Shown: positions 1,143-21,673, numbered from the stretch's first letter. The stretch: DNA of 48,160 nt from Clostridia bacterium (GCA_002919235.1 PKEX01000031.1:1-48160), one strand, 5' to 3'. The notes: generated by a model from the letters alone, not told the origin. A program made the numbers and translations.

Positions 1143-1178
1143 GGCGCTCCACCTCGATAGCCGGATCCCGGCCCCGCA

Positions 1179-1412
1179 TCACCATGACCGGGGCATGATG
1201 CGCTCGCCGATGGGGCCCAGCACCTGCTGGATCAGCCGGGCCGGATTGGGCACCGGCCAGTTCAACGCCACGGCCAGCGCGTAGCCCACCGCCACCACCA
1301 TCATCGCGGCGAAGGCGGCCAGTTCTTTGGGGCCGCCGCCGTAGCGGCGGATCCGGATGTATTCGAAATACCCTGCGAGACCTAGAACGAGAAAGAGCCC
1401 AAGGAGGATCAC
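1179..1412 (-). CDS. Small two-helix membrane protein inside the ger operon
   Basis: A 77-residue protein with two predicted membrane helices, the first at residues 1-15 and the second around 30-50, separated by a basic segment rich in Tyr and Arg. Its GTG start overlaps the gerC stop codon in a GTGA arrangement, and a GGGAGGGG Shine-Dalgarno lies 8 bases upstream, so translational coupling to gerC is likely. The gerB start follows 36 bases after its stop. Small membrane proteins are known to accompany some germinant receptor operons (the GerD/2Tm class of Bacillus megaterium is one precedent), but I cannot show homology. A longer reading from an upstream ATG at 1589 would run through gerC in another frame and is not credible. 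Confidence 0.72.
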   Translation of the reverse strand: MILLGLFLVLGLAGYFEYIRIRRYGGGPKELAAFAAMMVVAVGYALAVALNWPVPNPARLIQQVLGPIGERIMPRSW

Positions 1413-2677
1413 CGCGCCGGCCCCTCCCGGCCGCCGGCCTCCCGCAGCTCTCTGAGGGAGGTCGCCCTGCTGCGCGGGACGGTGAGCGACCGGGACGTAA
1501 GGCCTGTCCGCAGGATTCGCGCGTCGACCACCACTTCGACGGGAATCTCCGGGAAGAGCTCGTCCCACGACGCTTTCACTTGCTCCCACACCGCGGGCAT
1601 CGCCCGGCGCACCGCCGCGCCGAACCCTAAAATGTCGCTCTGCGCCTCGCGCTGCACTTTATCCAGGGTGTGCCGGACGCTCCGTTCAATCTCGGAGGCG
1701 AGCTTCTCCTCCAGCAGGCGGACTACTGCGACGTCGTCCGCGTCGACGCTGGCTTGGTTGTCCACCAGCGCGGTCTCGGCTTTCACCTCAAGGCGCATGG
1801 TGATCTCCCCGTCCTTAACCGCGGGCACGAGCCGCCGGCTCTGGCGGATGACGTTGAATCCCACCCACTTCCCGTCGCCCATGGGCACTTCGACGGTCTG
1901 GATGGCAAAGTCGCCCTGGGCCCAGTGCAGCCCCGGGGTCTCTTCTTCCGTCAGCAGCGCCACGAGGCGCGGCCCCTTGAAGACGGCGGCTCCCCGCATC
2001 GAAGGCTGCGTGGGCCCCTCGCGCGCCGAAGAGACCGGCTGCGGTGAGCCGATGGAGCCGGGCTCGGGCGCCCCCGTGGTGGTGACGTGGACCAGGCCCA
2101 CAAAGGGCTCGACTCCTTCGTTGAGGAGCAGCGTCAGGAATCTGCGGAGGGTGATGAAGGGGCCGATCCGCAGCCGTTCGATCTCCTGGATCCCCGAGGG
2201 GACGTTGAGCTCGATGGGAAGAGTGGTGGCCAAGACGTCCTTCGCCCGGCCGACGGCCACCGCCAGCACGGTGTTGAGGCGCGGCTGGGTGCTGCGGGTA
2301 AAGAAGTCCAGCACGTCCGCAACCCCTTCGCGGGCCAGGTCCTCGCCGATGAGAATCACGGCGTTCTGCGCCCAAAAGAGCTGGCGGGAGAGCATCTTTT
2401 GCAGGCGGGTTTGGGCTTCGGAGACCGTCCGGCCGGTGGCCGACTTGTTGGTGGCCGGCGGTCCCTGGCCCTCGCCGCCCGGCGCGCCGGGCGGCTTGAT
2501 CTGCGCCGGGACGGCGATGGAGACGGTGAGCTCGACCTCGCCTTCGGGGCTGCGGTCGAGGGCCACCCCGTGCACAATGGCCAGGTCGTTCACTTCGATC
2601 CGGTCCCAGCAGCCGGAAAGGAGTGATGCCGCCAAGAGCACCGCCAGCGCGGCGGCCGCGCGCACGATCCGGCGCAT
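1409..2677 (-). CDS. Spore germination lipoprotein, Ger(x)C family
   Basis: The 422-residue product begins with a short basic segment and hydrophobic stretch ending in a lipobox LLSGC (Cys23), followed directly by the WDR-x-E-hN segment typical of GerAC/GerKC proteins. The C subunit is a lipoprotein of the spore inner membrane and part of the germinant receptor. A proline/glycine-rich stretch at about residues 62-80 interrupts the first domain and may be a lineage-specific insertion. The gene starts three bases after the gerA stop and overlaps the next small gene by four bases, so the operon is tightly packed. Length agrees with the family (about 370-420 residues). The lgt gene needed to lipidate it lies in the same window at 41435. 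Confidence 0.93.
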   Translation of the reverse strand: MRRIVRAAAALAVLLAASLLSGCWDRIEVNDLAIVHGVALDRSPEGEVELTVSIAVPAQIKPPGAPGGEGQGPPATNKSATGRTVSEAQTRLQKMLSRQLFWAQNAVILIGEDLAREGVADVLDFFTRSTQPRLNTVLAVAVGRAKDVLATTLPIELNVPSGIQEIERLRIGPFITLRRFLTLLLNEGVEPFVGLVHVTTTGAPEPGSIGSPQPVSSAREGPTQPSMRGAAVFKGPRLVALLTEEETPGLHWAQGDFAIQTVEVPMGDGKWVGFNVIRQSRRLVPAVKDGEITMRLEVKAETALVDNQASVDADDVAVVRLLEEKLASEIERSVRHTLDKVQREAQSDILGFGAAVRRAMPAVWEQVKASWDELFPEIPVEVVVDARILRTGLTSRSLTVPRSRATSLRELREAGGREGPAR

Positions 2678-2680
2678 GCC

Positions 2681-4336
2681 TCACTCCGCCTCCTGTTCCC
2701 AGGGCTCCGGGCCCGCCTTGCTGTGCCTTTTCTGGCGCTCGGGGTTGAGGTAGCCCGACATGGCGGGCCGGTGCGAGCGCCACCAAGCCGGCGGCCGGAT
2801 GACGACATCCCTTAGGCTCGAGGGGACCAACGGAGAGACGGGGGCCGTGTACGGCATGCCGAAAGAGCGCAGCCCCGTCACGTGGATCAAGATGAGGAGC
2901 ACGCCGATGACGATCCCGTACAGGCCGAAGGTGGACGCCAGGATCATCACGGGAAAGCGGAGGAGCCGCACCGTGACGCCCAGGTTGAACCGGGGAAAGG
3001 CGAACGACGCGATCCCGGTGATGGCGACGATGATCACCATCGGCGCGCTGACCAGGCCCGCCTGCACTGCCGCCTGGCCGATCACCAGGGCGCCGACGAT
3101 GCTCACGGCCTGGCCGACGTTGCGGGGAAGCCGCACGCCCGCCTCGCGCAAGGCTTCAAACATCAGCTCCATCATGAGGGCTTCCACCACCGAGGGGAAC
3201 GGGATCCCCTCGCGCGTGGCGGCCACGGTGAGGAGCAGCTGAGTGGGGAGCATCTCCTGGTGGAACGTGGTGATGGCGACGTAGAGTGCAGGGCCCAGCA
3301 GCGCCAGCGCGGCCAGCACGTAGCGGAGGCCCCGCAGGAACGAGCCGATGAAGTAGCGTTCGTAGTAGTCTTCGCTGGCCTGCAGGAGGCTCCAGAGCGA
3401 GACCGGGACGATCAGGGCGAAGGGCGAGCCGTCCACCAGGATCGCAAGGCGTCCCTCCAGGAGGTGCGCGGCGACGATGTCGGGCCGCTCCGTGGGGATC
3501 ACCTGGGGAAACGGCGAGTACGGGTCGTCCTCGAGGAACTCTTCCAGCATCGCGCTGTCGATGATCCCGTCCACGTCGACCCGGGCCACGCGCCGCTTGG
3601 CCTCCTCAACCAGGATGGGCGGCGCCAGCCCCTCGATGTAGCAGATGACGATGTCGGTGCGGGTGAGCCTGCCGGCGCGCGCCAGCTCCAGCTTCAGCTG
3701 CGGGGTCCGCAGCCGCCGCCTGATGAGGGCGGTGTTGGAGCGCAGGTTCTCGACGAACCCCTCCCTGGGCCCCCGGATGATGGACTCGGTCTCCGGCTCG
3801 CCGACTCCTCGCTTCTCGTACGCCCGGGCGCTGACCAAAAGGCCCCGGGTCTCCCCGTCCACCAGAAGACAGGTGTCGCCGTGGAGCATGCCGTCCACCG
3901 CGTCTTTGATGGTGTGGATCTCCCGGACTTGGGAGTCCTGCAGGATGCGGAGCTTGATGTGCTCGACGAGGTCCGGCGGCCCGCTCTCCGCTTCGCCCCC
4001 TGAGGCCGGGACGCCGTCGAAGCGCATCAGGGCGGCGATGACGTGCCGTTCCAGGCTGTCTTTGTCTACCAAGCCTTCGATGTAGGTGACCAGCGCCTCG
4101 CGTCCTTGGGCCAGGCGGAGCGGGCGGAGCACCCAGTCGCTGGCCGCGGCGAAGAGGTGGCCCAGCGTGCGCTGGTTTTGGTGGAGCTGGTCGCTGATGG
4201 GCAGGTGTTCCAGCACCCCGACGGCGGCCATCAGCGCGTCGCGGCGGGCCGCCCTCCCCTTCAGCGATTCGGATTCGGCGATCATCCCCCGGTATTCGTC
4301 GAGGATCCGGGCGCGCTCCGTCCGACCGCCGCCCAC
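2681..4336 (-). CDS. Spore germination protein, GerA/GerKA family
   Basis: The roughly 551-residue protein has a soluble N-terminal half (to about residue 300) and a C-terminal half with about five membrane helices, the GerAA/GerKA architecture. Recognisable family segments include a TRTDIVICYIEG stretch near residue 220 and an FPQVIPTERPD stretch near 275. It is the first gene of the receptor operon. Start choice: an AGGAGGT sequence at about 4347-4353 lies 10 bases upstream of the GTG at 4336; an earlier in-frame GTG at 4348 would overlap that Shine-Dalgarno and is unlikely. The C-terminal cytoplasmic tail is short and charged. The A subunit acts in the inner spore membrane together with B and C. 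Confidence 0.93.
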   Translation of the reverse strand: MGGGRTERARILDEYRGMIAESESLKGRAARRDALMAAVGVLEHLPISDQLHQNQRTLGHLFAAASDWVLRPLRLAQGREALVTYIEGLVDKDSLERHVIAALMRFDGVPASGGEAESGPPDLVEHIKLRILQDSQVREIHTIKDAVDGMLHGDTCLLVDGETRGLLVSARAYEKRGVGEPETESIIRGPREGFVENLRSNTALIRRRLRTPQLKLELARAGRLTRTDIVICYIEGLAPPILVEEAKRRVARVDVDGIIDSAMLEEFLEDDPYSPFPQVIPTERPDIVAAHLLEGRLAILVDGSPFALIVPVSLWSLLQASEDYYERYFIGSFLRGLRYVLAALALLGPALYVAITTFHQEMLPTQLLLTVAATREGIPFPSVVEALMMELMFEALREAGVRLPRNVGQAVSIVGALVIGQAAVQAGLVSAPMVIIVAITGIASFAFPRFNLGVTVRLLRFPVMILASTFGLYGIVIGVLLILIHVTGLRSFGMPYTAPVSPLVPSSLRDVVIRPPAWWRSHRPAMSGYLNPERQKRHSKAGPEPWEQEAE

Positions 4337-4443: not shown

Positions 4444-4962
4444 ATGACTGAACACGATGCACAGCGGCAAGGCGCGAGCCAGCACCGGGGCGCAGGGGAC
4501 GAAGGATCAGGCCAGCCGGGCGGCCGGGAGCTGGCGCGGCTGCTTCACGACGTCGCCGACGCGCAAGTGAAGATGGCCGGGCTGATCGAGGCGTCCCGGC
4601 AGGAGCTGCGGGACCTGGTGACCCGGTGTGAACGGGCGGCGGAGCAGATCAGCCGCGCCGCGGAGAGCCTGGCGCTGGCAGCCGGGGTGGGCGGGGCGCA
4701 GGGCGGGCAGAGCGGGCAGGAGAACGGGCACGGGAGCGGGTCCCGCGCGCAAAGCCGCAGAGAGGGGAGGGCTCGCCGGCGGGTGCGGCCGCGGCGCAGC
4801 CTTGGCCCGGAGGCTCCTTCCGGGAACGGGCCGAAGGCAGAGGCGGATTCCCGCGACGGCCACGCTTTCCACGACGGCGGGCAGCTCAGAGAAGAGCTGG
4901 AGCGCCTCGTCGCTGAGGCCGCGCAGCTCCTCCAGCGCGTGGAGCGCCTCAACCGGGCGTGA
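4444..4962 (+). CDS. Hypothetical coiled-coil protein
   Basis: I do not recognise this 172-residue product. Residues 30-80 and 140-172 look helical with heptad-like spacing of Leu, Ala and Val. The middle (about 82-130) is a low-complexity linker rich in Gly, Gln, Arg and Ser that is probably disordered. There is no signal peptide or membrane segment. The ATG at 4444 has a GGGAG motif 6 bases upstream; an upstream in-frame start at 4399 lacks one. It is divergent from the germinant operon and its last 14 bases overlap the 3' end of the convergent neuB-like gene. Codon use looks normal for the window, so I take it as real, though such high-GC low-complexity reading frames can be spurious. Confidence 0.55.
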   Translation: MTEHDAQRQGASQHRGAGDEGSGQPGGRELARLLHDVADAQVKMAGLIEASRQELRDLVTRCERAAEQISRAAESLALAAGVGGAQGGQSGQENGHGSGSRAQSRREGRARRRVRPRRSLGPEAPSGNGPKAEADSRDGHAFHDGGQLREELERLVAEAAQLLQRVERLNRA

Positions 4963-5824
4963 GCCGGATCTGCTTGAGCTTTTGCCGCTGGGCCACCTCG
5001 ACGGGGAGCAGCTCGGACCGCCGGGGCGTAAGGGCGCGGGCCACGTCGCGCACGTCCTGGACCAGCTGCCGCAGGGCGTGGGGCTCCAGCGAGGCCGCGT
5101 GGTCCGTCCCTTTCCACGTGCGGTCCAGCGTGAAGTGACGCTCGATCCACTCGGCGCCCAGGGTCATGGCGGCGATGTCGGCGGCGATGCCCAGGTGATG
5201 GCCGGAAAAGCCGATCCCCTTGCAGGCGGACCGGTATTCGCGCACGAGCCGTTCGACTTCCAGGAGCGAGAGCTCGTCGAAGGGAACCGGGTACCCGGAG
5301 ACGCAGGCGTAGAGCACCGTATCTTTCAGCCTTCCCCGCGCCTCGAGGAACCGGACGAGCCGCTCCTCTTCTTCCCGGGTGGTCATGCCCAGCGACACGT
5401 GGATCTCGCCCCCGTATTCGCCGCACAGGTAGGCCAGGAGCTCCATGTGGGTGTTGCACGCGGACGGCACCTTGATCATCTGAGGGTTGAGGCTGGCGAT
5501 CTCCCGCGCGCTGGTGAGGTCCCAGACGCTGGAGCTGTAGACGACGCCGCACGCTTCGCAGAGGTCCTTGAGGCGGCGGTGCTCCTCCAGGTCAAACTCC
5601 AGCGCCTCCCGGTGCTCGCCGTAGGTCTTGCCGTAGGCGTTGTGCGGCACGGGGTGGGGTGCGGCGTACTGCTCGGGCGTGAGGCACTCTTTCGGGTTGC
5701 GCTTTTGAAACTTTACCACGTCCACGCCGCAGACGTGCGCGGCGATGAACACCATCCGGCGGGCCGTCTCCGGCTCGCCCCGGTGGTTGCAGCCAACCTC
5801 AGCGATGATGCGCGGCCGCTTCAA
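4949..5824 (-). CDS. NeuB-family nonulosonate/sialate synthase, SAF domain absent
   Basis: The 291-residue protein matches the TIM-barrel NeuB domain that condenses phosphoenolpyruvate with a hexosamine-type sugar to give sialic, legionaminic or pseudaminic acids. Visible family segments are IIAEVGCNHRG near the N terminus, VKFQKRNP near 40, IKVPSACNTH near 120, GFSGHHLG near 200 and EWIERHFTLDR near 227. Usual NeuB/SpsE proteins are about 340-370 residues and carry a C-terminal SAF (antifreeze-like) domain; this one ends after the barrel. Start is TTG with AGGAGG 7 bases upstream, and its first 26 bases overlap the 3' end of the neuA-like gene, which implies coupled expression. The exact sugar product cannot be told from sequence alone. 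Confidence 0.85.
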   Translation of the reverse strand: MKRPRIIAEVGCNHRGEPETARRMVFIAAHVCGVDVVKFQKRNPKECLTPEQYAAPHPVPHNAYGKTYGEHREALEFDLEEHRRLKDLCEACGVVYSSSVWDLTSAREIASLNPQMIKVPSACNTHMELLAYLCGEYGGEIHVSLGMTTREEEERLVRFLEARGRLKDTVLYACVSGYPVPFDELSLLEVERLVREYRSACKGIGFSGHHLGIAADIAAMTLGAEWIERHFTLDRTWKGTDHAASLEPHALRQLVQDVRDVARALTPRRSELLPVEVAQRQKLKQIRLTPG

Positions 5825-6974
5825 CGCTCTCCCTCCTGGACGTGAAGATGAGATCGGCCAGCTCCCGGATGCACCCGCCCCCGCCGGGCGCTTCGAGGAC
5901 GATGCGCGCGGCGGCCTTGGCCTTCTCGTGGGCGTCCGCCGGGGCCACGCCGCACCCGGAAAGCAGCATGCAGGGGACGTCCGGCACGTCGTTCCCCACG
6001 TACACCACTGATTCCGGGGAGATCCCGCGGCTCGCGAGCCACGCCCCCAAGGCCGGCAGCTTCTCTTGAGCCACGAGACACTCGACGCCGAGCTTTTGGC
6101 ACCGGTGCCGCACCGCCGGATTGGACTCCTTGGTCAGCACCAGAAGTTCGATCCCGGCGGCGCGCAGCGCCCCGATGGCCCAGCCGTCCCCCCGGTGGCA
6201 GGCTACGGATTCGACGCCGTGCTCGTCCACGCGCACGCGGTTGTCGGTGAGGACGCCGTCGAAGTCCATCACCACGGCGGCGACGGTCTCCGGGAGCTGC
6301 GCCGCTTTCGCCCTCTGAAGCCGCCGGCGCAGCAGCGTCTGGGCGATGAGGAAGTCGGTCTCGTCGTCAATCTCGATGCCCCGTTCAGGCGGGATGACGT
6401 GCAGGGCGGTGGAGCCGTGAAACCGCCGCTTGAAGCGCTGGAGCCCCTCGATCTTCATGGCGTAGACCGCGCCCACCTCCACGTACCGGGGCTCCAGCTC
6501 CTGCCGGGGAAGGCGATGCTCCTTGTCGTGGCCCACCGGGCGCGCGTCCCGCAGCGGGCCTTTCCAGATGAAGCGGTGCCACGGCGTGGCGGTGACGGCG
6601 GTATCCGCCGTGTCCAAGAGCGCCAGCGTCCCGTCGATGTCCTCGGGCAGCGTCAGCGGGGAGGTGCACTGGAGAAAGGCCAGCGGGCCGCGGGTGAGCT
6701 CCAGCTGTTCCAAGGCGTGAAGGAGCGCCTCTTCGGAAGGCGAGCGATCGCCGCTGATCTCCGGCGGCCGCATGACCACCCGCGCGCCGAACCTCCGGCT
6801 CACTTCGGCGATTTCCGGATCGTCGGTGGAGACCACCACCTGGTCGACGGAGGCTGCAGCGGCGGCGCTTTCGATGGTCCATGCGATCAGGGGCTTGCCG
6901 CACAAGGGCAGCACGTTCTTGCGCGGCAGCCCTTTTGAACCGCCGCGGGCGGGGATGATGGCGATCGCCTTCAA
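5799..6974 (-). CDS. CMP-nonulosonate cytidylyltransferase fused to KdsC-like HAD phosphatase
   Basis: Two domains in 391 residues. Residues 1-225 form a NeuA-type CTP:acylneuraminate cytidylyltransferase with the signature IPARGGSKGLPRKN at 7-20 and a conserved QCTSPL segment near 98. Residues about 230-385 form a KdsC-type HAD phosphatase with the nucleophile motif DFDGVLTD (Asp237, Asp239), a TKE motif II and a GNDVPD motif near 335. Together these would dephosphorylate a sugar-9-phosphate and activate the free sugar with CMP. The TTG at 6974 has GAGGAGGT 9 bases upstream; upstream in-frame codons to 7139 look non-coding. It precedes and overlaps the neuB-like gene. The same fusion order occurs in vertebrate CMAS, where the phosphatase domain has lost its first Asp. 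Confidence 0.88.
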   Translation of the reverse strand: MKAIAIIPARGGSKGLPRKNVLPLCGKPLIAWTIESAAAAASVDQVVVSTDDPEIAEVSRRFGARVVMRPPEISGDRSPSEEALLHALEQLELTRGPLAFLQCTSPLTLPEDIDGTLALLDTADTAVTATPWHRFIWKGPLRDARPVGHDKEHRLPRQELEPRYVEVGAVYAMKIEGLQRFKRRFHGSTALHVIPPERGIEIDDETDFLIAQTLLRRRLQRAKAAQLPETVAAVVMDFDGVLTDNRVRVDEHGVESVACHRGDGWAIGALRAAGIELLVLTKESNPAVRHRCQKLGVECLVAQEKLPALGAWLASRGISPESVVYVGNDVPDVPCMLLSGCGVAPADAHEKAKAAARIVLEAPGGGGCIRELADLIFTSRRESVEAAAHHR

Positions 6975-7174: not shown

Positions 7175-7795
7175 TTGGCGAGCAAGGTGGCCATTGTCGG
7201 AGGGGCGTGGACCCGCCGCCTCGCCCCGTACGGCGACGACGCCTGGGAAATCTGGGCCTTTTCCAGCTTGAAGCTGCACACCCCGAGGATCACCCGCTGG
7301 TTTGAGATGCACGCCCTTCCCGACCTCAAAGGGCAGCTGGTGAAAGAGACTCGCCGGCGCCACTCCTATGCCTCGTATATGGCGTTCCTCCGCCGGCTGG
7401 AGGTGCCCGTCTACATGCAGGACGTGGTGCCGGAGGTGCCCGGCAGCGTCCGCTACCCTCTGGAGCAGGCGCTGGCCGCGTTCGGCCGGTGCTTTTCCAG
7501 CACGGCGTCGTACCTCATCGCCCTGGCGATCCTCGAGGGATTTCCCACCATCGGCGTCTGGGGCGTGCACCTCACCCACAAGAGCGTCTACGCCCGGCAG
7601 CGGCCGGGGGTCGAATACCTCCTGGGAGTCGCCCGCCAGCGGGGGATCGAGGTGGTCCTTCCCCGGCAGTCCCCCTTGAAGATCCCGAAGCGGCCCGTGC
7701 TGCCCCGGGTCGATGTCCTCTACGGCTATGACTGGCAGTCGCCCAAGGCCTGGTGGCGCCGGCGCCCCCGCCGGCGGCGGAGCACCAGGCGCTGA
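7175..7795 (+). CDS. Rossmann-like protein with GT42-like motif layout, paralog 1
   Basis: A 206-residue protein with a nucleotide-binding-like N terminus (KVAIVGGAWTRRLAPY), a WEIWAFSS strand, an RWFEMH segment near residue 48, an SSTASYLIALAILEG helix near 110 followed by GVWGVHL, and an IEVVLPRQSPLKI strand near 160. The order of these elements resembles GT42 sialyltransferases (Campylobacter CstI/CstII), and similar proteins occur in phage genomes; both are recollections, not searches. The aligned position of the CstII catalytic His seems not to be His here. It is the first of two tandem paralogs and diverges from neuA/neuB. Start is TTG with GAGGGGG 7 bases upstream. The C terminus is a basic, Arg-rich tail. 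Function is unproven. Confidence 0.75.
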   Translation: MASKVAIVGGAWTRRLAPYGDDAWEIWAFSSLKLHTPRITRWFEMHALPDLKGQLVKETRRRHSYASYMAFLRRLEVPVYMQDVVPEVPGSVRYPLEQALAAFGRCFSSTASYLIALAILEGFPTIGVWGVHLTHKSVYARQRPGVEYLLGVARQRGIEVVLPRQSPLKIPKRPVLPRVDVLYGYDWQSPKAWWRRRPRRRRSTRR

Positions 7796-7831
7796 CGGTC
7801 TTTCCCCCGCAGTGATCAACGGATCCGGAGC

Positions 7832-8506
7832 GTGAGGCTGGTCGTGGACGGAGCGGAACGGAAAGTGGCGATCGTCGGCGGAGGGCCGTCGCGCCGCAAG
7901 GCGCCTTTCGACGACCCCTCTTGGGAGATCTGGGCGTTTTCCAGCCGCAAGTGGAGGTACCCGCGGGTCGACCGCTGGTTTGAGCTGCACCATATGACGG
8001 ACCTGCGCCAGCAGCTGGCCACCTACAGGCCGGGAAGGCGGTCGTGGCGCGGGTATATGAGGATGCTCCGGCGGATGGAGTGCCCCGTCTACCTGCAGGA
8101 GCTCCATCCGGACATCCCCAACGGGGTCCGCTATCCCATCGAGGAGGCGCTCGAGCGGTTCGGCCGCTGCTTTACCAGCACGGCCTCGTACCTGGTGGCG
8201 CTCGCGATCCTCGAAGGGTACGACTGCATCGGCCTTTGGGGCATCGACGTGCGGCGCAAGGAGTACCTGAAGCAGCGCCCCGCTCTCAAGTACCTGCTTT
8301 CCATCGCCAAGAACCAGGGTATCCGCGTCGTCCTTCCCCGCCAGTCGCCGCTTTACATCCCCAAGACTCCGCGTTTGGTCAGGACGCGGGCGCTCTACGC
8401 CTACGACTGGCGTTCCAAGCACGCCTGGTGGAGAGAGCGGGTCCGCCGCCGGCTGCGCAGGCTCCGGCGGTTGAAGCGGCTCAGGCGGAGGCGGGCCAGG
8501 CGGTGA
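7832..8506 (+). CDS. Rossmann-like protein with GT42-like motif layout, paralog 2
   Basis: The 224-residue product aligns end to end with the preceding gene at roughly half of positions. Shared blocks are KVAIVGG, WEIWAFSS, RWFE-h-H, FGRCF-S/T-STASYL, ALAILEG, QRP and VVLPRQSPL-h-IPK. Compared with paralog 1 its N-terminal glycine loop is closer to the GNGPS motif of CstI (here GGGPS). It ends in a tail of about 30 residues that is almost entirely Arg, Leu and Lys. GTG at 7832 is used here; a GTG at 7841 is also possible, and no strong Shine-Dalgarno decides between them. The 36-base gap from paralog 1 suggests one transcript. It may be a glycosyltransferase for the sugar made by the neighbouring NeuB/NeuA, but this is inference. 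Confidence 0.75.
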   Translation: MRLVVDGAERKVAIVGGGPSRRKAPFDDPSWEIWAFSSRKWRYPRVDRWFELHHMTDLRQQLATYRPGRRSWRGYMRMLRRMECPVYLQELHPDIPNGVRYPIEEALERFGRCFTSTASYLVALAILEGYDCIGLWGIDVRRKEYLKQRPALKYLLSIAKNQGIRVVLPRQSPLYIPKTPRLVRTRALYAYDWRSKHAWWRERVRRRLRRLRRLKRLRRRRARR

Positions 8507-11595: not shown

Positions 11596-13131
11596 GTGAC
11601 CAAGCGTCTCGTCCTGGTCTTGCTCCTGGCGCTGCTCGCCATCGGGAGCGCGGGCTGCCGGCTCCTGGGAGTGAGCGGCCCCAGCGACGGGAGCCGGATC
11701 GACGTGGAGCGGGCGATCGAGTCGATCGCTGCCGCCGTCCAGCTCAAAGACGCCGCCGGTGTCGCAGTCCACTTGGCCGAGTACTTCGAGGTCACCTCGG
11801 GTACCGTCGCCCCCCTCTCGCTGGGCCTCATGGCCCAGAGCCAGATCCCGGAATTCCTGGAGCGCATCTGGGGCGACGTGGAGTTCGATACCGTCGAGGT
11901 GGTCCTCGGGCGCATCCAGGTCGACGGCGGGTCGGCCGTCGCCGAAGGGAGCTTTACGCTCTCCTTTACGGATGCGGGCGGCGCCGAGGTCCGCTGTGCC
12001 GGCACGGGCAGGGTTCACCTGGAGTACGCCGCCGGGCAGTGGGTTGTCACCCACGTGGACGTCCTGGAATCCGAGTGCACCGGAGGAACCCCCGGGGAAC
12101 CGGGAAGCCCCGGAGTGCCCGGGCTTGAACCCCCGCCTGCCGGCGTGCCGGGGTACTACTTCGACAGGTGCCAGTATTTAGTCCTTGGTTTTCAGGGCGA
12201 ACAAGTCGCGGCGCTGCAGACGGCCCTCAAGTTCCTGGGCTACTACAGCGGCAAGATCGACGGCGACTTCGGGCCGCTCACCGACCGGGCGGTCCGGGCG
12301 TTCCAGTCGGCCAAGGGCCTCTACGTCGACGGCGAAGCGGGGCCCAAGACCTACGCCGAGCTCAACAAGGCGCTCGCGTCCAAGAAGGGCTACTACCTCT
12401 GCGGCGTCGCTGACGAGCGGGCCGACGCGGGCCCCACGATGCTCACCATGTCGGCGCTGCGCAAGGGCACGGCCTTTGAGACGCCCGTCTACATCTACGA
12501 CTCGCCCACGCCGGGCCCGACTCTGGTGTTCATCGGCTGCATCCACGGCAACGAGCGGTCGGGGCACCTGGCCCTCACGGAGGCCATCGACCGGGGGATC
12601 ACCGTCTCCCGGGGCCGCCTGGTGATCGTGCCTGCTTTTAACAAGATCGCCTGCGAGCAGAACCGCCGCACGCTGTCGCGCAGCGGTTCGGCCCTGTCGG
12701 GCAAGGACTTCAACCGCATGTTCCCCGTGGGTTCGTCGCCCACGTACACCATCGCCAAGGAGATGTGGGACCTGATCAAATCCCAGCCCAACTTGGCGTT
12801 CGTGGTGGACTTTCACGACGGCTTCGTCAACAGCCTGGGGAACACGCTGATCCACACCCGGCAGGCCGAGGCGGGCAGCGTCGCCCGGCGGATCCGGGAC
12901 GCTCTCAATGAGATCCGGCCCAGCGGCGCGACGGGACCCAAGTGGCGGGCGCTGACGGAGCCCATCTCCGGCAGCCTCACCCGCAAGGTCGGCCGGGATC
13001 TAGGCATCCCTGCGGTGGAGGTGGAGCTCTCCGGCCGCTCGCCGGGTGACCCGCTCTCGCTGCGCAAGAAGTACGCCTGGCGCGTCATTCGCATGATGGG
13101 CTACGAGTACGGGATGGCCATCGGCTTCTAG
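11596..13131 (+). CDS. Lipoprotein with peptidoglycan-binding and M14/AspA-like carboxypeptidase domains
   Basis: The 511-residue product starts with a lipoprotein signal ending in GSAGC (Cys21). Residues about 30-155 look like a small alpha/beta domain. A collagen-like Gly/Pro linker follows (about 160-185), then a PG_binding_1 domain at about 197-255 with the KIDGDFGPLTDRAVRAFQ core. Residues about 290-505 resemble the succinylglutamate desuccinylase/aspartoacylase branch of M14 zinc peptidases: HGNE supplies His317 and Glu320, His407 is the likely third ligand, and Glu475 or Glu477 is a candidate catalytic residue. A role in trimming wall peptides is inferred. Start: GTG at 11596 with AGGAGG 9 bases upstream. 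A strong terminator follows. It is transcribed alone, divergent from purEK. Confidence 0.85.
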   Translation: MTKRLVLVLLLALLAIGSAGCRLLGVSGPSDGSRIDVERAIESIAAAVQLKDAAGVAVHLAEYFEVTSGTVAPLSLGLMAQSQIPEFLERIWGDVEFDTVEVVLGRIQVDGGSAVAEGSFTLSFTDAGGAEVRCAGTGRVHLEYAAGQWVVTHVDVLESECTGGTPGEPGSPGVPGLEPPPAGVPGYYFDRCQYLVLGFQGEQVAALQTALKFLGYYSGKIDGDFGPLTDRAVRAFQSAKGLYVDGEAGPKTYAELNKALASKKGYYLCGVADERADAGPTMLTMSALRKGTAFETPVYIYDSPTPGPTLVFIGCIHGNERSGHLALTEAIDRGITVSRGRLVIVPAFNKIACEQNRRTLSRSGSALSGKDFNRMFPVGSSPTYTIAKEMWDLIKSQPNLAFVVDFHDGFVNSLGNTLIHTRQAEAGSVARRIRDALNEIRPSGATGPKWRALTEPISGSLTRKVGRDLGIPAVEVELSGRSPGDPLSLRKKYAWRVIRMMGYEYGMAIGF

Positions 13132-15470: not shown

Positions 15471-18122
15471 ATGCGACAAAAGGCAGTGGCTCTCTTGATG
15501 GCTGCCCTGTTGATCGCCGCCGTGCCTCTGAGCGCGGGCGCCAACGTGAACCCGTTCTCGGATGTCCGGGCGGATCACTGGGCCTACGACGCCATCGTGA
15601 AGCTGGCCGCCGCGGGCCTGATCGAAGGGTATCCCGACGGCACGTTCGGCGGCGACCGCACGTTCACCCGGTACGAGATGGCCATGGTCTTCGCGCGTAC
15701 CCTCGCGCGGTTCGAGGAGCTGATCGAGCAGAGGATCGCCGAAGGCATTGACGCCAAGACCGCGGCCTTGGCGCATGACATCGAGTGGGTCCGCCAGGAG
15801 CTCACCGAACGCATTGCTGCCAACCTGGAGGACCTAGCGGCGCGCGTCCGGGCGCTCGAGCTTGAAGTGGCGGACCTTCAGACCGGCGCAATCAGCTCGC
15901 TGTCGGATGAGGCGCGGGCTGCCCTGGCCGCGGCGCTCATCGACGAGATGCGCGCTCAGCTGCGGGAGCTGTTGGGTGAGGACATCACCGAGCTGGCGGC
16001 GCGGATCCGCAATCTCGATGAAGAGGTGGAGCGCATCGCCCGCCAGGTGCTGGCGGACCTGATCGCCGGCGGCGATCTCTCCCTCATCGAAGGGGCCGAA
16101 GGCGATCCGGCGGGCGCGGCCCTGCTGGTGCAGCGGCGGGTGCGCGACCTCGAGGCCACCATCGCGGCGCTGGCTGACGAGTTCCGCAACGAGCTGGACC
16201 TCCTCGGCGCGAGGGTCTCGGTGCTCGAAAAGCGCGTCGGCAGCGTGTGGATCAGCGGCAAGAACGAGACCAACTACACGCAGACGTCCATCGTCAGCGC
16301 TGATCTCAGCAAGAAGTTCTACGCCGACCCGCGGGAAGAGGAAGGCGAGCTCAAGCGGGAGCACGAGTTCACCAACAAGTTCACGGTGACCCTGACGGCG
16401 ACGCCGGCGGAGAACGTCACCGTGAAGGGTTCGCTGACCGCCACGACGCAGCTGGGCCCGACCGAGGTCAACAAGGACGGGTTTGAGGCGGTGGGCCACC
16501 TGTCGGTGACCACTCCGGGCGTCCTGCGGTCGCTGGAGGCAGGCGACCTGGATACGGAGGTCATCGCCGAGCCCTTCGGCAAGTACCTGTTTGACGCCGC
16601 GCGGTACAACGACACCGATGGTACCACCAAGCGGGGCGCCCACGTGGATCTCGTCTGGGGCCGGAACGACAGCACCAACCTGCACGCGTTTATGAGCAAG
16701 GTTGATCTGCAGCCGGTCGCTGCTGCTGAAGACCCTGACGATAACGAGCTCGTCCTGGGTGGTTCGCTGTCGTACGCGCTCGGCGAGGCCTTCAACCTGA
16801 ACTTCGCGGGCGTCCGGTACGTCAACGTGCTGGATGCGGCGGATCCGGCCGCTGCGGCCTTGGGTGCCGTCGACGACCGGGTCTACAGCGCGGCGGCTAA
16901 GGGGACGCTGCAGTCTGTCGACTACAGTGCCTTCTATGCCGCGCATGAAGACGCAGTCGAGGGCGACGGCGTGTCCAACGTGGTGGAGGCCCGCCTCTCG
17001 TTCCCGGTGCTCTCCGCAAAGGTGGAGGCGGAGTACGGCGCGGTCGACGAGAACTACGCGCCCAAGTTCGCCAAGGAGCTCGACGCCGGCAAGGATATGG
17101 TGTCCAAAGGCCTTGACTGGCTCGAGCGGAAGCTGGCGCCGGCGGAGGACTGGCTGGACCGGGGCGAGAGCACGTACTCGGCCAAGCTTAGCTTCCCGGT
17201 GCTGGGCGGCGAGGCCAGCGCTTCGTTCGGCCGGCTGACGGCGAATGACAGCGGCAAAGAGGGTCCGGATCCGGCTACGACGACCGTCACCAACGACTTC
17301 GTCCAAGCCGAGGTGACCGGCATCCGCTTCGCCGGCATCGAGACCGGGGTGCTCTACGACCGGCGGGCCGACGAGGCTGGCGCCGAGGATCAGACGCTGC
17401 GGGCCAGCTTGGAGGCACCCATTCTGGGCGTGATAGTCAAGGCGACGGTGCACAACCGCACGAACGACCAGAACTGGGCCGTGAGCACGGGCGAGGACGA
17501 GCAGCAGCACGTGTGGGTGGTCGCACAGCGCGAGTTCACTGACTGGGTGCTGCCGCTGAAGTTGACGGGACGCTACGGCACGAGCGAGACGGCGCCGGCC
17601 AGCGACCACACCTTCCTTGAGGTGATGGTGGAGGACTATCCGGTGGGGCCGTTCGCCTTCACGGCGGGCTACTCGACGTCCCGCAACGACGTGGATCCGG
17701 ACAAGTGGTGGTTCAACGAGAAGTGGACCACGGATCAGGTGAACACCACCACCCTGGGCGTCAAGTACACGTTGCCCAGCTTCTTCGGCACCGACATCGT
17801 CACCGGGTACGAGTACAAGCACGTCGACAAGAACGGGACGGGCTACACTCGGAACACGATCACCGCCTCCTTTGAGAAGGAGCTGCGGGGCGGCGAAGCC
17901 AAGTTGGCCGGAGAAGGGAAGTACATCAGGGGCAGCGTCCCGGGTGACAAGCGTGACAGCGACACTGACCTCGTGACCAAGCTCACGCTCACCTACCCGG
18001 TGTTTGAGGGCGCCGAGCTGAACGTCAGCGGGCTGTACGTGGACAGCAAGGGCTCCACGGATCCGGATAAACCGGACTACACCGCGTACCAGCTCAAGGC
18101 CGGACTGGCGTTCGAGTTCTAA
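15471..18122 (+). CDS. SLH-domain outer-membrane porin, OmpM-like
   Basis: The 883-residue protein has a signal peptide (cleavage near residue 24), one SLH domain (about 27-80, with FSDVRADHWAYDAI and GYPDGTFGGDRTFTRYEMA), a long helical coiled-coil region (about 82-255, heptads of Leu/Ile/Val) and a beta-rich C-terminal part of about 620 residues with alternating polar and hydrophobic strands that ends in Phe. This is the layout of OmpM proteins of Negativicutes and Halanaerobiales: the SLH domain binds peptidoglycan, the coiled coil spans the periplasm and the barrel sits in the outer membrane. It therefore argues for a diderm envelope. The ATG has an AAGGGGG Shine-Dalgarno. A terminator follows. 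Composition fits an abundant protein. Confidence 0.9.
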   Translation: MRQKAVALLMAALLIAAVPLSAGANVNPFSDVRADHWAYDAIVKLAAAGLIEGYPDGTFGGDRTFTRYEMAMVFARTLARFEELIEQRIAEGIDAKTAALAHDIEWVRQELTERIAANLEDLAARVRALELEVADLQTGAISSLSDEARAALAAALIDEMRAQLRELLGEDITELAARIRNLDEEVERIARQVLADLIAGGDLSLIEGAEGDPAGAALLVQRRVRDLEATIAALADEFRNELDLLGARVSVLEKRVGSVWISGKNETNYTQTSIVSADLSKKFYADPREEEGELKREHEFTNKFTVTLTATPAENVTVKGSLTATTQLGPTEVNKDGFEAVGHLSVTTPGVLRSLEAGDLDTEVIAEPFGKYLFDAARYNDTDGTTKRGAHVDLVWGRNDSTNLHAFMSKVDLQPVAAAEDPDDNELVLGGSLSYALGEAFNLNFAGVRYVNVLDAADPAAAALGAVDDRVYSAAAKGTLQSVDYSAFYAAHEDAVEGDGVSNVVEARLSFPVLSAKVEAEYGAVDENYAPKFAKELDAGKDMVSKGLDWLERKLAPAEDWLDRGESTYSAKLSFPVLGGEASASFGRLTANDSGKEGPDPATTTVTNDFVQAEVTGIRFAGIETGVLYDRRADEAGAEDQTLRASLEAPILGVIVKATVHNRTNDQNWAVSTGEDEQQHVWVVAQREFTDWVLPLKLTGRYGTSETAPASDHTFLEVMVEDYPVGPFAFTAGYSTSRNDVDPDKWWFNEKWTTDQVNTTTLGVKYTLPSFFGTDIVTGYEYKHVDKNGTGYTRNTITASFEKELRGGEAKLAGEGKYIRGSVPGDKRDSDTDLVTKLTLTYPVFEGAELNVSGLYVDSKGSTDPDKPDYTAYQLKAGLAFEF

Positions 18123-18160
18123 GCGAAAGCGCATTGAGGACGTGTGGTTCCTCGGAGAGG

Positions 18161-18195
18161 AAGGCCCCCAGGGGGTGACACACCCCCGGGGGCCT
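18161..18195 (+). terminator. Terminator after SLH-porin gene
   Basis: A very strong stem of about 15 pairs (18161-18177 with 18181-18195, one bulged A, 3-base loop) is followed by TTCCT rather than a full T-run. Position just after the porin stop supports termination or mRNA 3'-end protection. Confidence 0.75.
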
Positions 18196-18205
18196 TTCCT
18201 AAACC

Positions 18206-18661
18206 ATGGGCGGTGTGGCAGCCTTGAGCAGGGAATTCCTCGCGGCGGTCGATCCGGGGCGCGAGAAGTGCGGCCTCGCGCTGATGTCCACGGACGGCGG
18301 CGTGGTGGAGCGGCGGGTGGCGCCGCGACGCGAGGCGCTCGCCCTCCTCGTGCAGTGGACGGAGACGTACGGGGTTCGGACGGTAGTGCTAGGCGACGGT
18401 ACGGGCTCCAAGGAGTTCGCCCGGGAGATCGAGAAGTCGCCGCTGGCCGGACGTGTGCGGGTCTGCGTGGTGGACGAACGCCTCTCCACGCTGGCGGCCA
18501 GGGAGCGTTACTTCGAGGAGCACCCCCCGCGAGGGTGGCGGCGGCTCCTCCCCCGGTCGCTGCAGGTGCCGCCGGTGCCCTACGACGACTTCGTCGCCGC
18601 GATCCTAGGGGAGCGGTTCTTGGCGCAGAGGGCCGCTGAGCCCGGCGCCCCGGATCCCTAA
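18206..18661 (+). CDS. YqgF/RuvX-like RNase H-fold nuclease
   Basis: A 151-residue protein with the YqgF (RuvX) pattern: AVDPGREKCGLA at about 14-25 with the first acidic residue, VVLGDGTGSKE near 63, VDERLST near 92 (family DERLTT) and DDFVAAIL near 127 supplying the last Asp. YqgF proteins process the 5' end of pre-16S rRNA or resolve branched DNA. The usual Firmicutes RuvX gene sits beside alaS and yrzB; this copy is instead embedded in a cell-envelope cluster and its sequence is divergent, so it may be a paralog with a different job. The ATG at 18206 has no clear Shine-Dalgarno; GTG at 18215 or TTG at 18224 are possible starts. Confidence 0.8.
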   Translation: MGGVAALSREFLAAVDPGREKCGLALMSTDGGVVERRVAPRREALALLVQWTETYGVRTVVLGDGTGSKEFAREIEKSPLAGRVRVCVVDERLSTLAARERYFEEHPPRGWRRLLPRSLQVPPVPYDDFVAAILGERFLAQRAAEPGAPDP

Positions 18662-18791
18662 AGGCTGGGATGGCTTTCATCTTTTGGTGATCCGTTGTAA
18701 TCTAGAAGTACCGTCGGCCGGTATGGGAACTGAATGAGGCGCTGGATGAACGTCGTGGGAAAGAATACCTGAGTGAAAGGAGGCGAGCGGG

Positions 18792-20549
18792 ATGAGGGTG
18801 TGGTGCAAGGGCCGCGGCGCGAGGCTGGCTGTGCTGCTGGCGCTGCTTATCCTGTGGACCACAGCGTGCCCGCTCGCCGTCCCCGCGTCGGCCAACCCTT
18901 TTGAAGTACTGCCGGAGGGCCACTGGGCGTACGCGACGGTGAGATCCCTCTCGCGGAAGGGGTTCGTCCCGCGGTATGTGGCGGACCGGCTGTCGCTGGG
19001 GTACAAGATGTCGTACTTCGATCTCGCCGTCTGGCTAGGGGAGGCGGTCCAGAGCCTGACGCCGGCTGAAGGACCCCCGCCTACCGTCGATGACATCGTC
19101 GACGTCCACAACCGGGCGCACCCCGATGTCCCGCTGAGCGAAAGCGAGCGCCGGGAGCTGGGCGAGCTGCTGGCACTGGTCAGGGACCAGCTGGAGATCC
19201 TGGGCTACCCCATCCCGGTGGGCGTCGCCGGGAACGGGCACGAGGGCATCCGGCTCGATGGCGTGGCCCAGGCGCTGGAACGTTTTCGCATGCGGGGAGA
19301 GAGCCGCATCGTCTACCAGGACATCCAGCAGTCGGCGCCCGAGGAGGAAGAGCGTCGCAGCTCCAACGTGGAGCACAGCTATGCACTGCACCTCTCAGGG
19401 GCGTTGAACCAGTGGCTGAATGTGGGCGCGGCCTTCTACACCGAGAGCAAGTTCGGGACCGGCTATGAGCAGGGGATGTTCCGCGTAGCTGCTCCCGGCG
19501 TCGACTTGGGCGTCCCCGGGGCCGCGGTGGCCCGTTTCGGCCCGGTGACGGGCGCCGGCCTGAGCGAGCTGGCCGCGGGCGGCGTGCGGGAGCTGTCGGG
19601 CTTTCAGGCGGCTTTCCAGTCGGGCCAGCTCGGTTCGACGTTGCTCGTCGCCAGAGCCCGCGTGGATGGGCTCGACCCGACAAGCTCGGCGACGGCTCCG
19701 CTGATCACCGCCGTGGACGGCCTGGTGCGGGTGACGGACCGGCTGCAGCTGGAGGCGACGATGGCGTACCGGTCGGGTGGGCTGGAGCCTTCTGCGGACG
19801 GAGAAGGGAATGAGGAAACCGCCGTGGTGTCGGTGGCGGGGACGTACGCGGTCCTTCCCCAGCTGACGCTCACCACCGAGGTGGCCCAGAACCCCACGGC
19901 CGGAGACGGAGGCGGGGCCCTCAAGGTGGGCGCGGTGGTCTACCCGGCGCCCGAAGTGACGTTGGGCGCCCTGCTGTCGTCGTTCGGCGAAGGATACCGC
20001 ACTTTGCTGGGATCGGAGACGGGCCCCCGCTCGCGCGTGGACCTGTCGGCCGAGATCGGCCGCTGGATCCTGTCGCTCCGCCGGGAGCAGCTGGTGACCC
20101 CCCAAGGGGAAGACGGCCAGTCGACCCGGTGGGGGCTTGCGTCGTACGTCGACGATTACACCATCGTCCGGGCGGCCCGGGAGCTCTCCCGGGTGGACGG
20201 TGGCGAGGGGGACGAGCCGGCGGTCCTGGACAAGACGGAGCTGGGGCTGGAAATCCGCTTCGAACTGGGCAAGCTGGGACTGGATTTCGCCGTCGAGGGC
20301 GCGAAGGGCGAGCCCTCGTCCACCGTGCGACGGACCCGGGCGACGCTGGAGCACGCGGTGGGGCCCATCGGCCGGGCTTCGGCAGGGATCGCCATCGTCG
20401 ATCAGGAATTGGGAAGAGAGACCGCGTCGAACCTGGGCATTCGCTACGACTTCGACGACGCCAGCGTGGCGCTGCGGTACGAGATCTTGACGAAGGTGGG
20501 TGAGGTCACGGAAAACGTCACTACGGCGGAGGTTTCGATCAAGTTCTGA
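18792..20549 (+). CDS. Predicted outer-membrane beta-barrel protein with degenerate SLH-like N terminus
   Basis: A 585-residue exported protein. The signal peptide ends near residue 35 (PASA). Residues about 36-85 (NPFEVLPEGHWAYATVRSL and later YFDLAVWLGEAV) keep the spacing of an SLH domain but lack the usual GYPDGTF core. A helical stretch at about 85-180 follows. The rest is beta-rich with alternating residues and ends in IKF, with the terminal Phe seen in outer-membrane barrels. It probably sits in the outer membrane like the larger porin upstream. ATG start has AAAGGAGG about 9 bases upstream. It lies in a plus-strand set with the porin, YqgF-like and exported repeat genes. Confidence 0.75.
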   Translation: MRVWCKGRGARLAVLLALLILWTTACPLAVPASANPFEVLPEGHWAYATVRSLSRKGFVPRYVADRLSLGYKMSYFDLAVWLGEAVQSLTPAEGPPPTVDDIVDVHNRAHPDVPLSESERRELGELLALVRDQLEILGYPIPVGVAGNGHEGIRLDGVAQALERFRMRGESRIVYQDIQQSAPEEEERRSSNVEHSYALHLSGALNQWLNVGAAFYTESKFGTGYEQGMFRVAAPGVDLGVPGAAVARFGPVTGAGLSELAAGGVRELSGFQAAFQSGQLGSTLLVARARVDGLDPTSSATAPLITAVDGLVRVTDRLQLEATMAYRSGGLEPSADGEGNEETAVVSVAGTYAVLPQLTLTTEVAQNPTAGDGGGALKVGAVVYPAPEVTLGALLSSFGEGYRTLLGSETGPRSRVDLSAEIGRWILSLRREQLVTPQGEDGQSTRWGLASYVDDYTIVRAARELSRVDGGEGDEPAVLDKTELGLEIRFELGKLGLDFAVEGAKGEPSSTVRRTRATLEHAVGPIGRASAGIAIVDQELGRETASNLGIRYDFDDASVALRYEILTKVGEVTENVTTAEVSIKF

Positions 20550-20602
20550 GGTTTTCCGTTGGCCGTTTCCGTCCGGGGGCACGAAGAGAAGGAGGGCCGA
20601 AC

Positions 20603-21541
20603 ATGCGCAGGACAGTGGCTTTGCTCGTCACATTCTCTCTTGTTTGGTGGATGATGGTGCCCGCGGCGCACGCCCAAACCGCCACGGCCGTCGGACCGCC
20701 GGGGTTGATCCAGGTCGAACAGATCCTCTACGGGCAGGCGCAGGAAGGACCGCTGGTACCCCGTCTTGAGAAGGCAGAGCGCGACATCTATGGGAGAACC
20801 CAAGACGGGAGCGCCTTCCTGGTCCGCCTGCAGCGGCTGCAGAACATGCTGACGGGGGCGGAAGGCGACATCCCGCTCAAGATGAAGTTGAACGCCATCG
20901 AATGGGTGACGTTCCGCTCCATCAACGAGAACCCCTCCATCCAGCGGCGGCTTGAGCTGTTGGAGTCGCAGCTCTACGGGCAGATCTTCAATGACATGAG
21001 CCTGGTGGAGCGGCTCGATCAGCTCCTCCAGCTGATGTGGCCGGGCGGGAGGATCTACGCGGCCGACGCCACCGTCCCCAAGGGGACGCTGATCCGCATC
21101 GAGCTCTTGACGGAATTGAACTCGGAGAAGAGCCAGCTGAATGACGTCGTCCGCTACCGCGTCCTGGACGACGTGACGATCGAGGGGAAGATCGCGATCC
21201 CCGCGGGCTCGGAGGGCCAAGGCCGCATTACGGCGGTGAGCGGCGCGGGCCGGCTGGGCCAGGACGGGAGAGTGCAGGTGGATTTCGGCTCCGTCCTCGC
21301 GATGGATTCCACCCCGGTGCCGATCCATCTGGACGAACGGGCCACTGAGCGCAACAAGTCGCTGGAGCTGGCCGCCGGCGCGAGCATCGCCGGGATCATC
21401 CTGCTGGGGCCCATCGGGCTGACCGCGGGGTATTTCGTGCAGGGACGGCAGCACGTGGTGCCGCAAGGTTCCGTCTTCTACGTCGAAGTGGCCCGGGACA
21501 CGCAGGTGCGGGCCCTGTCCCTCGTGCCTACCGGGCGCTGA
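20603..21541 (+). CDS. Exported protein with LYG-type repeats and C-terminal beta domain
   Basis: The 312-residue product has a signal peptide ending near AHA (residue 23). Residues about 38-145 contain three imperfect repeats of form h-YG-x(6-9)-L-h-x-RL-x-x-h, at about 43, 61 and 127. The rest has beta-like segments (VPKGTLIRIELL, IPAGSEGQGRI) and a glycine-rich hydrophobic hairpin near 255-275. I recall LYG-x-RL repeats from proteins of diderm Firmicutes and cyanobacteria but cannot name the family. It follows the SLH-like barrel gene by 53 bases and has a GAAGGAGGG ribosome site, so it is likely cotranscribed. A periplasmic or envelope-spanning role is inferred from company. Confidence 0.7.
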   Translation: MRRTVALLVTFSLVWWMMVPAAHAQTATAVGPPGLIQVEQILYGQAQEGPLVPRLEKAERDIYGRTQDGSAFLVRLQRLQNMLTGAEGDIPLKMKLNAIEWVTFRSINENPSIQRRLELLESQLYGQIFNDMSLVERLDQLLQLMWPGGRIYAADATVPKGTLIRIELLTELNSEKSQLNDVVRYRVLDDVTIEGKIAIPAGSEGQGRITAVSGAGRLGQDGRVQVDFGSVLAMDSTPVPIHLDERATERNKSLELAAGASIAGIILLGPIGLTAGYFVQGRQHVVPQGSVFYVEVARDTQVRALSLVPTGR

Positions 21542-21636: not shown

Positions 21637-21673
21637 CCGGGCCGGTCTGGGGGCCGGCCCGGCTTCGTTCTTT
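21637..21673 (+). terminator. Terminator ending the envelope cluster
   Basis: A 9-bp perfect stem (21637-21645 with 21654-21662) is followed by a T-rich stretch ending at 21673. A second, longer GC hairpin at about 21592-21625 with a single bulge lies just before it. Both sit between the plus-strand envelope genes and the convergent M42 gene. Confidence 0.7.

Follow-up and report, generated by a model that had tools for sequence, protein, structure and literature searches.

Cultured Limnochordia have diderm cell walls, as seen by electron microscopy (PMC11456536). The diderm state had been claimed earlier on genomic grounds (Taib et al., 2020, as cited in PMC11456536), and Limnochorda pilosa is listed as a Gram-negative spore-former (Watanabe et al., 2016, as cited in PMC11456536). 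A conserved outer-membrane locus has been described in Negativicutes and Halanaerobiales, and COG0816 and DUF3084 proteins encoded there were flagged as candidate outer-membrane-related proteins (Antunes et al., 2016; PMC5007114). Two proteins of Veillonella are also relevant. One is OmpM1, in whose S-layer homology (SLH) domain individual residues have been tied to ligand binding (PMC10628300). The other is vpar_0646 of V. parvula, which has no known domains, is encoded upstream of lptD, was found in outer-membrane and surface fractions, and is conserved together with lptD throughout the Negativicutes; an LptE-like role was suggested for it (PMC5491611). Here, we analyze a block of four genes at positions 15471-21541 of a stretch of DNA from Clostridia bacterium. 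The whole stretch (the window) is contig C15, 48,160 bases long, from an assembly of 2.24 Mb in 47 contigs that is 99.45% complete. Its relatives in sequence comparisons place the genome in the class Limnochordia. The block very probably belongs to the outer membrane, as the detached tail of a large outer-membrane locus of a diderm, spore-forming member of this class. The evidence comes from targeted genome stretches and from family (profile) searches.

A diderm envelope combined with spore genes is already published for Limnochordia, to which the block adds one more member. The diderm state of the class bears on whether the Firmicutes descend from an ancestor with two membranes, and this genome is a further member with the kit. 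The part that appears to be unreported, and is worth following, is the family of the last protein of the block (protein 3) and its association with BamA.

Gene Content of the Block

All four genes lie on the + strand, separated by gaps of 83, 130, and 53 bases.

15471..18122, + strand: protein 1, 883 amino acids (aa), putative OmpM-type tether/porin; signal peptide (by inspection), one SLH domain, coiled-coil stalk, predicted barrel
15552..15683, + strand: SLH domain of protein 1, residues 28-71 (Pfam, E = 7.6e-12)
18206..18661, + strand: RuvX/YqgF paralogue (COG0816 type), 151 aa; Pfam RuvX E = 1.5e-6; D / E / D positions of the RNase-H fold kept
18792..20549, + strand: protein 2, 585 aa, predicted second SLH-type porin; degenerate SLH domain, barrel of about 17 strands at residues 304-584
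20603..21541, + strand: protein 3, 312 aa, predicted to be exported; signal peptide, helical repeats at residues 33-145, VirB10-C-terminal-like β domain at residues 152-312

The original prediction, made from the window itself, proposed a porin with SLH domain, coiled coil, and barrel, a second SLH-like barrel protein, and an exported repeat protein. The three open reading frames (ORFs; 883, 585, and 312 aa) score as coding by codon usage, and all three descriptions hold. Protein 1 has the signal peptide, single SLH domain, coiled-coil stalk, and predicted C-terminal barrel; protein 2 has a signal peptide, an SLH-like N terminus, and a predicted barrel; protein 3 combines a signal peptide with repeats of period 20-21. 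Both barrel proteins do end in phenylalanine (...GLAFEF in protein 1, ...TTAEVSIKF in protein 2), and the residue is present in every aligned relative. The fourth gene, the divergent RuvX/COG0816 gene between the two barrel genes (18206-18661), had been overlooked.

In the SLH domain of protein 1, W34, Y36, G58, and TRYE of Veillonella OmpM1 correspond to W37, Y39, G61, and T66-R67-Y68-E69; the residues tied to ligand binding (PMC10628300) are retained. A profile built from eight relatives of protein 1, all eight with the C-terminal Phe, matched OmpM1 (8bys, E = 8.5e-32) and SlpA (7zgx, E = 1.5e-21). The match to OmpM1 falls into two parts, the SLH domain and the junction of stalk and barrel (OmpM1 residues 83-172, i-Evalue 5e-4). 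The cyanobacterial somb-porin model aligned with residues 25-180 (E = 1.6e-19), below its cut-off. We propose that protein 1 is an OmpM-type tether, whose barrel would form a porin in the outer membrane while the SLH domain of the stalk grips the cell wall.

In protein 2, the SLH domain falls below the Pfam cut-off in this copy; the profile of twelve relatives matched the SLH domains of OmpM1 (8bys, E = 3.6e-17) and of SlpA. The ligand motif is lost: W and Y are kept, and TRYE is replaced by MSYFD here and by MTYFD in the sister genome. Among the remaining relatives, about half have TR.E, and several show a weakened motif. Because the motif for binding the cell wall is decayed in this family, protein 2, a shorter SLH-type porin, would probably work mainly as a channel. 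Porin_4 was found in eight of the twelve relatives. The AlphaFold2 model (mean predicted local distance difference test score [pLDDT] of 62.5, mostly 65-89 in the barrel) has a helical SLH part and about 17 strands up to the last residue. Compared with porin folds, the model gave VIA-align Z scores of 15.8-17.6, and its Foldseek matches include OmpM1 (8byt, E = 1.6e-4). As modeled, the barrel is of the porin type.

The RuvX-like protein would be cytoplasmic. The canonical RuvX gene lies on contig C6 and scores 146.8 bits, against 25-29 bits for the copy in the block, which by sequence is a divergent paralogue. In an alignment of 13 block copies with the canonical one, the first-motif D, DE or EE, and the late D are shared by the 13 block copies. 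As a separate observation, this RuvX/COG0816 paralogue, which retains its catalytic positions, accompanies outer-membrane genes throughout the phylum.

A Probable Relocation of the Block in This Order

In other orders of the class, eight relatives (L040, L041, L042, L043, L044, L046, L048, and L056) have a DUF3084 gene followed by one or more SLH porin genes. The RuvX-like gene, protein 2, and protein 3 follow in the same order in seven of the eight; the gene calls of L048 are incomplete. This arrangement is found repeatedly in the class, so the block is more than a chance assembly. In these other orders it stands directly after the lptB-DUF3084 genes, whereas in the order of this genome (the window, L039, and L047, those read far enough upstream) it is located elsewhere; here, the DUF3084 gene forms the end of contig C23 and is followed by a tRNA gene. 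The block was therefore probably separated from the outer-membrane locus in the ancestor of this order. In 25 class genomes, a distance of 18-33 kb separates BamA from protein 3 on the same contig. This relocation, like the wide distribution of the "repeat protein" described below, was beyond the view of the original prediction. By sequence inspection, a large polysaccharide-export-like gene lies directly 3′ of protein 3 in two loci (L044:14726-17371 and L056:14890-18327).

Outer-Membrane and Spore Genes Elsewhere in the Genome

Contig C31 encodes, in one direction, SpoIIID, MreB/Mbl, FlgF/FlgG-type, FlgA, FlgH, FlgI, and FlgJ-like proteins, a NAGPA phosphodiester glycosidase, an S55 peptidase-like protein, TamB, and, adjoining it, BamA (an Omp85 protein with POTRA domains). 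Except for FlgH, the Flg names were assigned by sequence inspection. The first part of contig C23 encodes OmpH, LpxD, a YjbH-like protein, an LptG-type protein, OstA/LptD_N, and LptC; it continues with LpxC, FabZ, LpxA, LpxI, LpxB, an MsbA-like protein, an epimerase, LptB, LptF, and DUF3084. LpxC, LpxB, OmpH, YjbH, LptD_N, LptC, LptF, and DUF3084 were tested with Pfam, and the remainder was named by inspection. The window itself contains a GerA-type germination operon (33-4336), and SpoIVA is encoded elsewhere in the genome (E = 2.6e-116).

Because BamA, TamB, OmpH, Lpx, and Lpt proteins, the LptD-like OstA, and FlgH occur together with SpoIIID and SpoIVA, the genome codes for a diderm spore-former. 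The original prediction had named a diderm endospore-former such as Limnochordia, and the outer-membrane gene set, the spore genes, and the relatives all agree with this. It had also reasoned that a lack of BamA/TamA and of outer-membrane biogenesis genes would speak against a second membrane; with BamA, TamB, Lpx, and Lpt genes present, it is not refuted. BamA and LpxC, LpxA, LpxB, and LpxD were found as anticipated. For LptD, the genome has the LptD-like OstA/LptD_N protein: the canonical C-terminal LptD domain (PF04453) gave a weak, sub-threshold match inside this gene (E = 0.02, 14.3 bits, cut-off 22.4), and OstA matched the profile of the LptD-like neighbors of protein 3 with E = 3.3e-37. 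The phrase "full spore genes" is borne out for the genes that were checked: the GerA operon, SpoIIID, and SpoIVA are present. Across the class, 71 of 73 genomes have BamA.

Two further gene runs were noted. On C31 (L037:5125-15516), SpoIIID and a SpoIVB/S55-peptidase-like protein share a run with FlgH, TamB, and BamA. A Tol-type-looking assembly on another contig (G000:C13, L053:4682-10141), in the same order in L045 and L054, encodes ExbB/TolQ, ExbD/TolR, and a Pfam-less protein in the place of TonB/TolA, followed by a 717 aa DUF11/CARDB protein and an SLH plus coiled-coil protein where Pal would be.

Protein 3 Shares a Predicted Fold with VirB10

Two features of protein 3 were mapped.

21056..21538, + strand: predicted TrbI/VirB10-C-terminal-like domain (VIA-align, Foldseek)
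21368..21445, + strand: conserved hydrophobic, Gly-rich insert in the VirB10-like domain (LAAGASIAGIILLGPIGLTAGYFVQG); alignment of 22 relatives, hydropathy maximum

In the AlphaFold2 model of protein 3 (mean pLDDT 79.1), six helices at intervals of 19-21 residues precede a β domain. The best repeat period was 20 in 19 of the 22 relatives and 21 in the other three. Residues 152-312 aligned with 6gyb_C over 123 residues (VIA-align Z 10.4, root-mean-square deviation 3.5) and with 3jqo_V (Z 10.2); the first unrelated row had a Z of 3.2, and Foldseek matches to VirB10 reached E values as low as 9.7e-7. The VIA-align list speaks for residues 152-312, with the helical-repeat part (33-145) barely covered. 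Searching the PDB by sequence with the protein 3 profiles gave nothing significant, so the link to VirB10 rests on the fold comparison together with weak matches to TrbI. The Pfam TrbI model scored 18.3 bits against a cut-off of 35 and was sub-threshold in seven of 14 class members and in seven of the wider set of 22. Because these scores are below the gathering score, we file protein 3 as sharing the VirB10 fold and not as a member of TrbI. An NCBIfam search with protein 3 gave weak matches only, well below cut-off.

In type IV secretion core complexes, the C-terminal domain of VirB10 carries a membrane-inserted projection. The insert of protein 3 may correspond to it by analogy. It is kept in 20 of the 22 aligned relatives (it is lost in L095 and L098), and the monomer model has a pLDDT below 50 at residues 257-279. 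No type IV secretion genes were recognized among the neighbors of protein 3 in the window or in its relatives. A literature search, which did not take in Taib et al. (2020), found no paper on TrbI/VirB10 in diderm Firmicutes or Negativicutes.

Protein 3 Co-occurs with BamA

Protein 3 was found in 68 of the 73 class genomes, nearly always as a single copy. In a sample of 398 genomes from the phylum, 85 have protein 3 and 102 have BamA; 84 have both and 295 have neither. The only genome with protein 3 and without BamA, G425, has relatives that carry BamA and is itself a draft, 91% complete. In most of the loci read outside the class, protein 3 adjoins the same SLH porin. An LptD-like gene, read in the same direction, lies directly downstream of protein 3 in nine of 17 non-class loci (L085, L088, L090, L092, L093, L096, L097, L099, and L101). 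Separately, nine genomes of family f35 (G091, G134, G172, G205, G234, G306, G329, G352, and G451) have Omp85, mostly with more than one match each, and no protein 3; their outer membrane is possibly different.

Other Features of the Window

The gap between protein 1 and the RuvX-like gene, and the region 3′ of protein 3, contain predicted hairpins.

18157..18198, + strand: strong GC-rich hairpin, possibly an attenuator or processing site; RNA fold of 18151-18205, -38.6 kcal/mol, with no long T-run behind it
21637..21662, + strand: terminator-like hairpin 3′ of protein 3; the count of such sites is not above the shuffled expectation

A promoter scan found none. The flanking genes (HSP20-like, by inspection, and M42 peptidases) are not outer-membrane genes. 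A long antisense ORF at 15834-18680 (948 aa) was rejected as a GC-rich shadow of protein 1; codon scoring did not select it. Farther upstream, a NeuB-type synthase gene adjoins a CMP-sugar-transferase-like gene (4949-6974), suggesting a possible sialic-acid-like sugar for the surface or the spore coat. Two similar tandem genes follow at 7175-8506, the first without a Pfam match, and 11596-13131 encodes a lipoprotein-like protein with peptidoglycan-binding and AstE/AspA-type catalytic domains.

Discussion

For the last protein of the block, we propose that it is exported and acts at the outer membrane, with its helical repeats in the periplasm. The VirB10-like domain would dock the protein in or on the outer membrane by means of the hydrophobic insert, and its partner would be the neighboring porin or the LptD-type lipopolysaccharide (LPS) translocon. 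We give these steps slightly less than an even chance. The broader idea that protein 3 founds an unrecognised outer-membrane family of diderm Bacillota is tentative: its VirB10-type domain would have come from secretion machines or be ancestral to them, the helical insert would be an anchor, the family would serve LPS insertion or porin assembly, and vpar_0646 would be a member. An equivalence of vpar_0646 and protein 3 is at this stage a lead, drawn from the published description and the gene arrangement only.

Protein 3 could instead be the missing LptE-type partner of LptD, binding or plugging the LPS translocon, with shared regulation as its only link to the OmpM block. The LptD-like gene that follows it so often outside the class fits this, as does vpar_0646, a neighbor of lptD found in outer-membrane and surface fractions and already proposed as a possible LptE equivalent (PMC5491611), but the Limnochordia LptD-like gene lies elsewhere (on C23) while protein 3 stays beside the porins. 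The fold match is moreover to VirB10 and not to LptE, and the comparison with vpar_0646 is one of description and arrangement; we consider this explanation unlikely, though less so than those that follow. A VirB10-like ring, in which the hydrophobic inserts form an α-helical outer-membrane pore and protein 3 is its own export channel, would account for the fold scores (Z of about 10, with unrelated rows at 3.2 or lower) and for the retention of the insert in nearly all relatives. However, no VirB7/VirB9-like partner or ATPase is encoded beside protein 3, the insert is short, glycine-rich, and not two clear amphipathic helices, and the ring is a proposal from a monomer model. We regard it as improbable. 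Finally, the block might come from a monoderm with its SLH proteins as ordinary S-layer proteins on the cell wall, since SLH domains are typical of S-layer proteins and a triple-SLH protein is encoded on contig C3. A single SLH domain followed by stalk and barrel is the architecture of OmpM, however, and the presence of BamA, TamB, LPS genes, and FlgH led us to reject this explanation, which now has next to no likelihood.

Several points weigh against placing the block at the outer membrane in the way we propose. For this organism, it is known from sequence and predicted models alone. The support for a barrel in protein 1 is modest: amphipathic stretches number 32, compared with 23.0 ± 3.3 in shuffled sequences (strand-periodicity z of 2.7). 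The model of protein 2 is poor and unreliable for residues 146-340. For protein 3, the fold match does not establish that the insert enters a membrane. BamA occurs without protein 3 in 18 genomes, nine of them in family f35, and the Fisher p of 6e-67 for the co-occurrence overstates the evidence: the genomes share ancestry, so we stress that the value is descriptive only.

What protein 3 adds is a candidate component of the outer membrane whose fold can be tested and which is found almost only where BamA occurs. It may also explain a Veillonella surface protein that was seen by proteomics but not named.

Comparison with Known Systems

The closest counterparts of protein 1 are OmpM1 (8bys/8bym) and Deinococcus SlpA (7zgx). 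All have a single N-terminal SLH domain, a coiled-coil stalk, the conserved 'EF..EL..LGVRV..LE' junction, and a C-terminal region with a final Phe, which in protein 1 is a predicted barrel. In contrast to OmpM1, protein 1 has a longer stalk, and no similarity to the barrel of OmpM1 could be detected in the sequence of its predicted barrel region, about 630 residues long. Residues 152-312 of protein 3, with their hydrophobic insert, resemble in fold the VirB10/TrbI proteins of type IV outer-membrane core complexes (3jqo, 6gyb); unlike these, protein 3 has N-terminal helical repeats in place of the inner-membrane part of VirB10, and no secretion genes lie nearby. The position of vpar_0646 upstream of lptD (PMC5491611) is the same as that of protein 3 in L088. 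The locus of Negativicutes and Halanaerobiales (PMC5007114) likewise clusters BamA, TamB, Skp, lpx, lpt, DUF3084, COG0816, and OmpM homologues, whereas here, as in the other representatives of this order whose loci were read, the OmpM-RuvX-porin-protein 3 block lies outside the locus.

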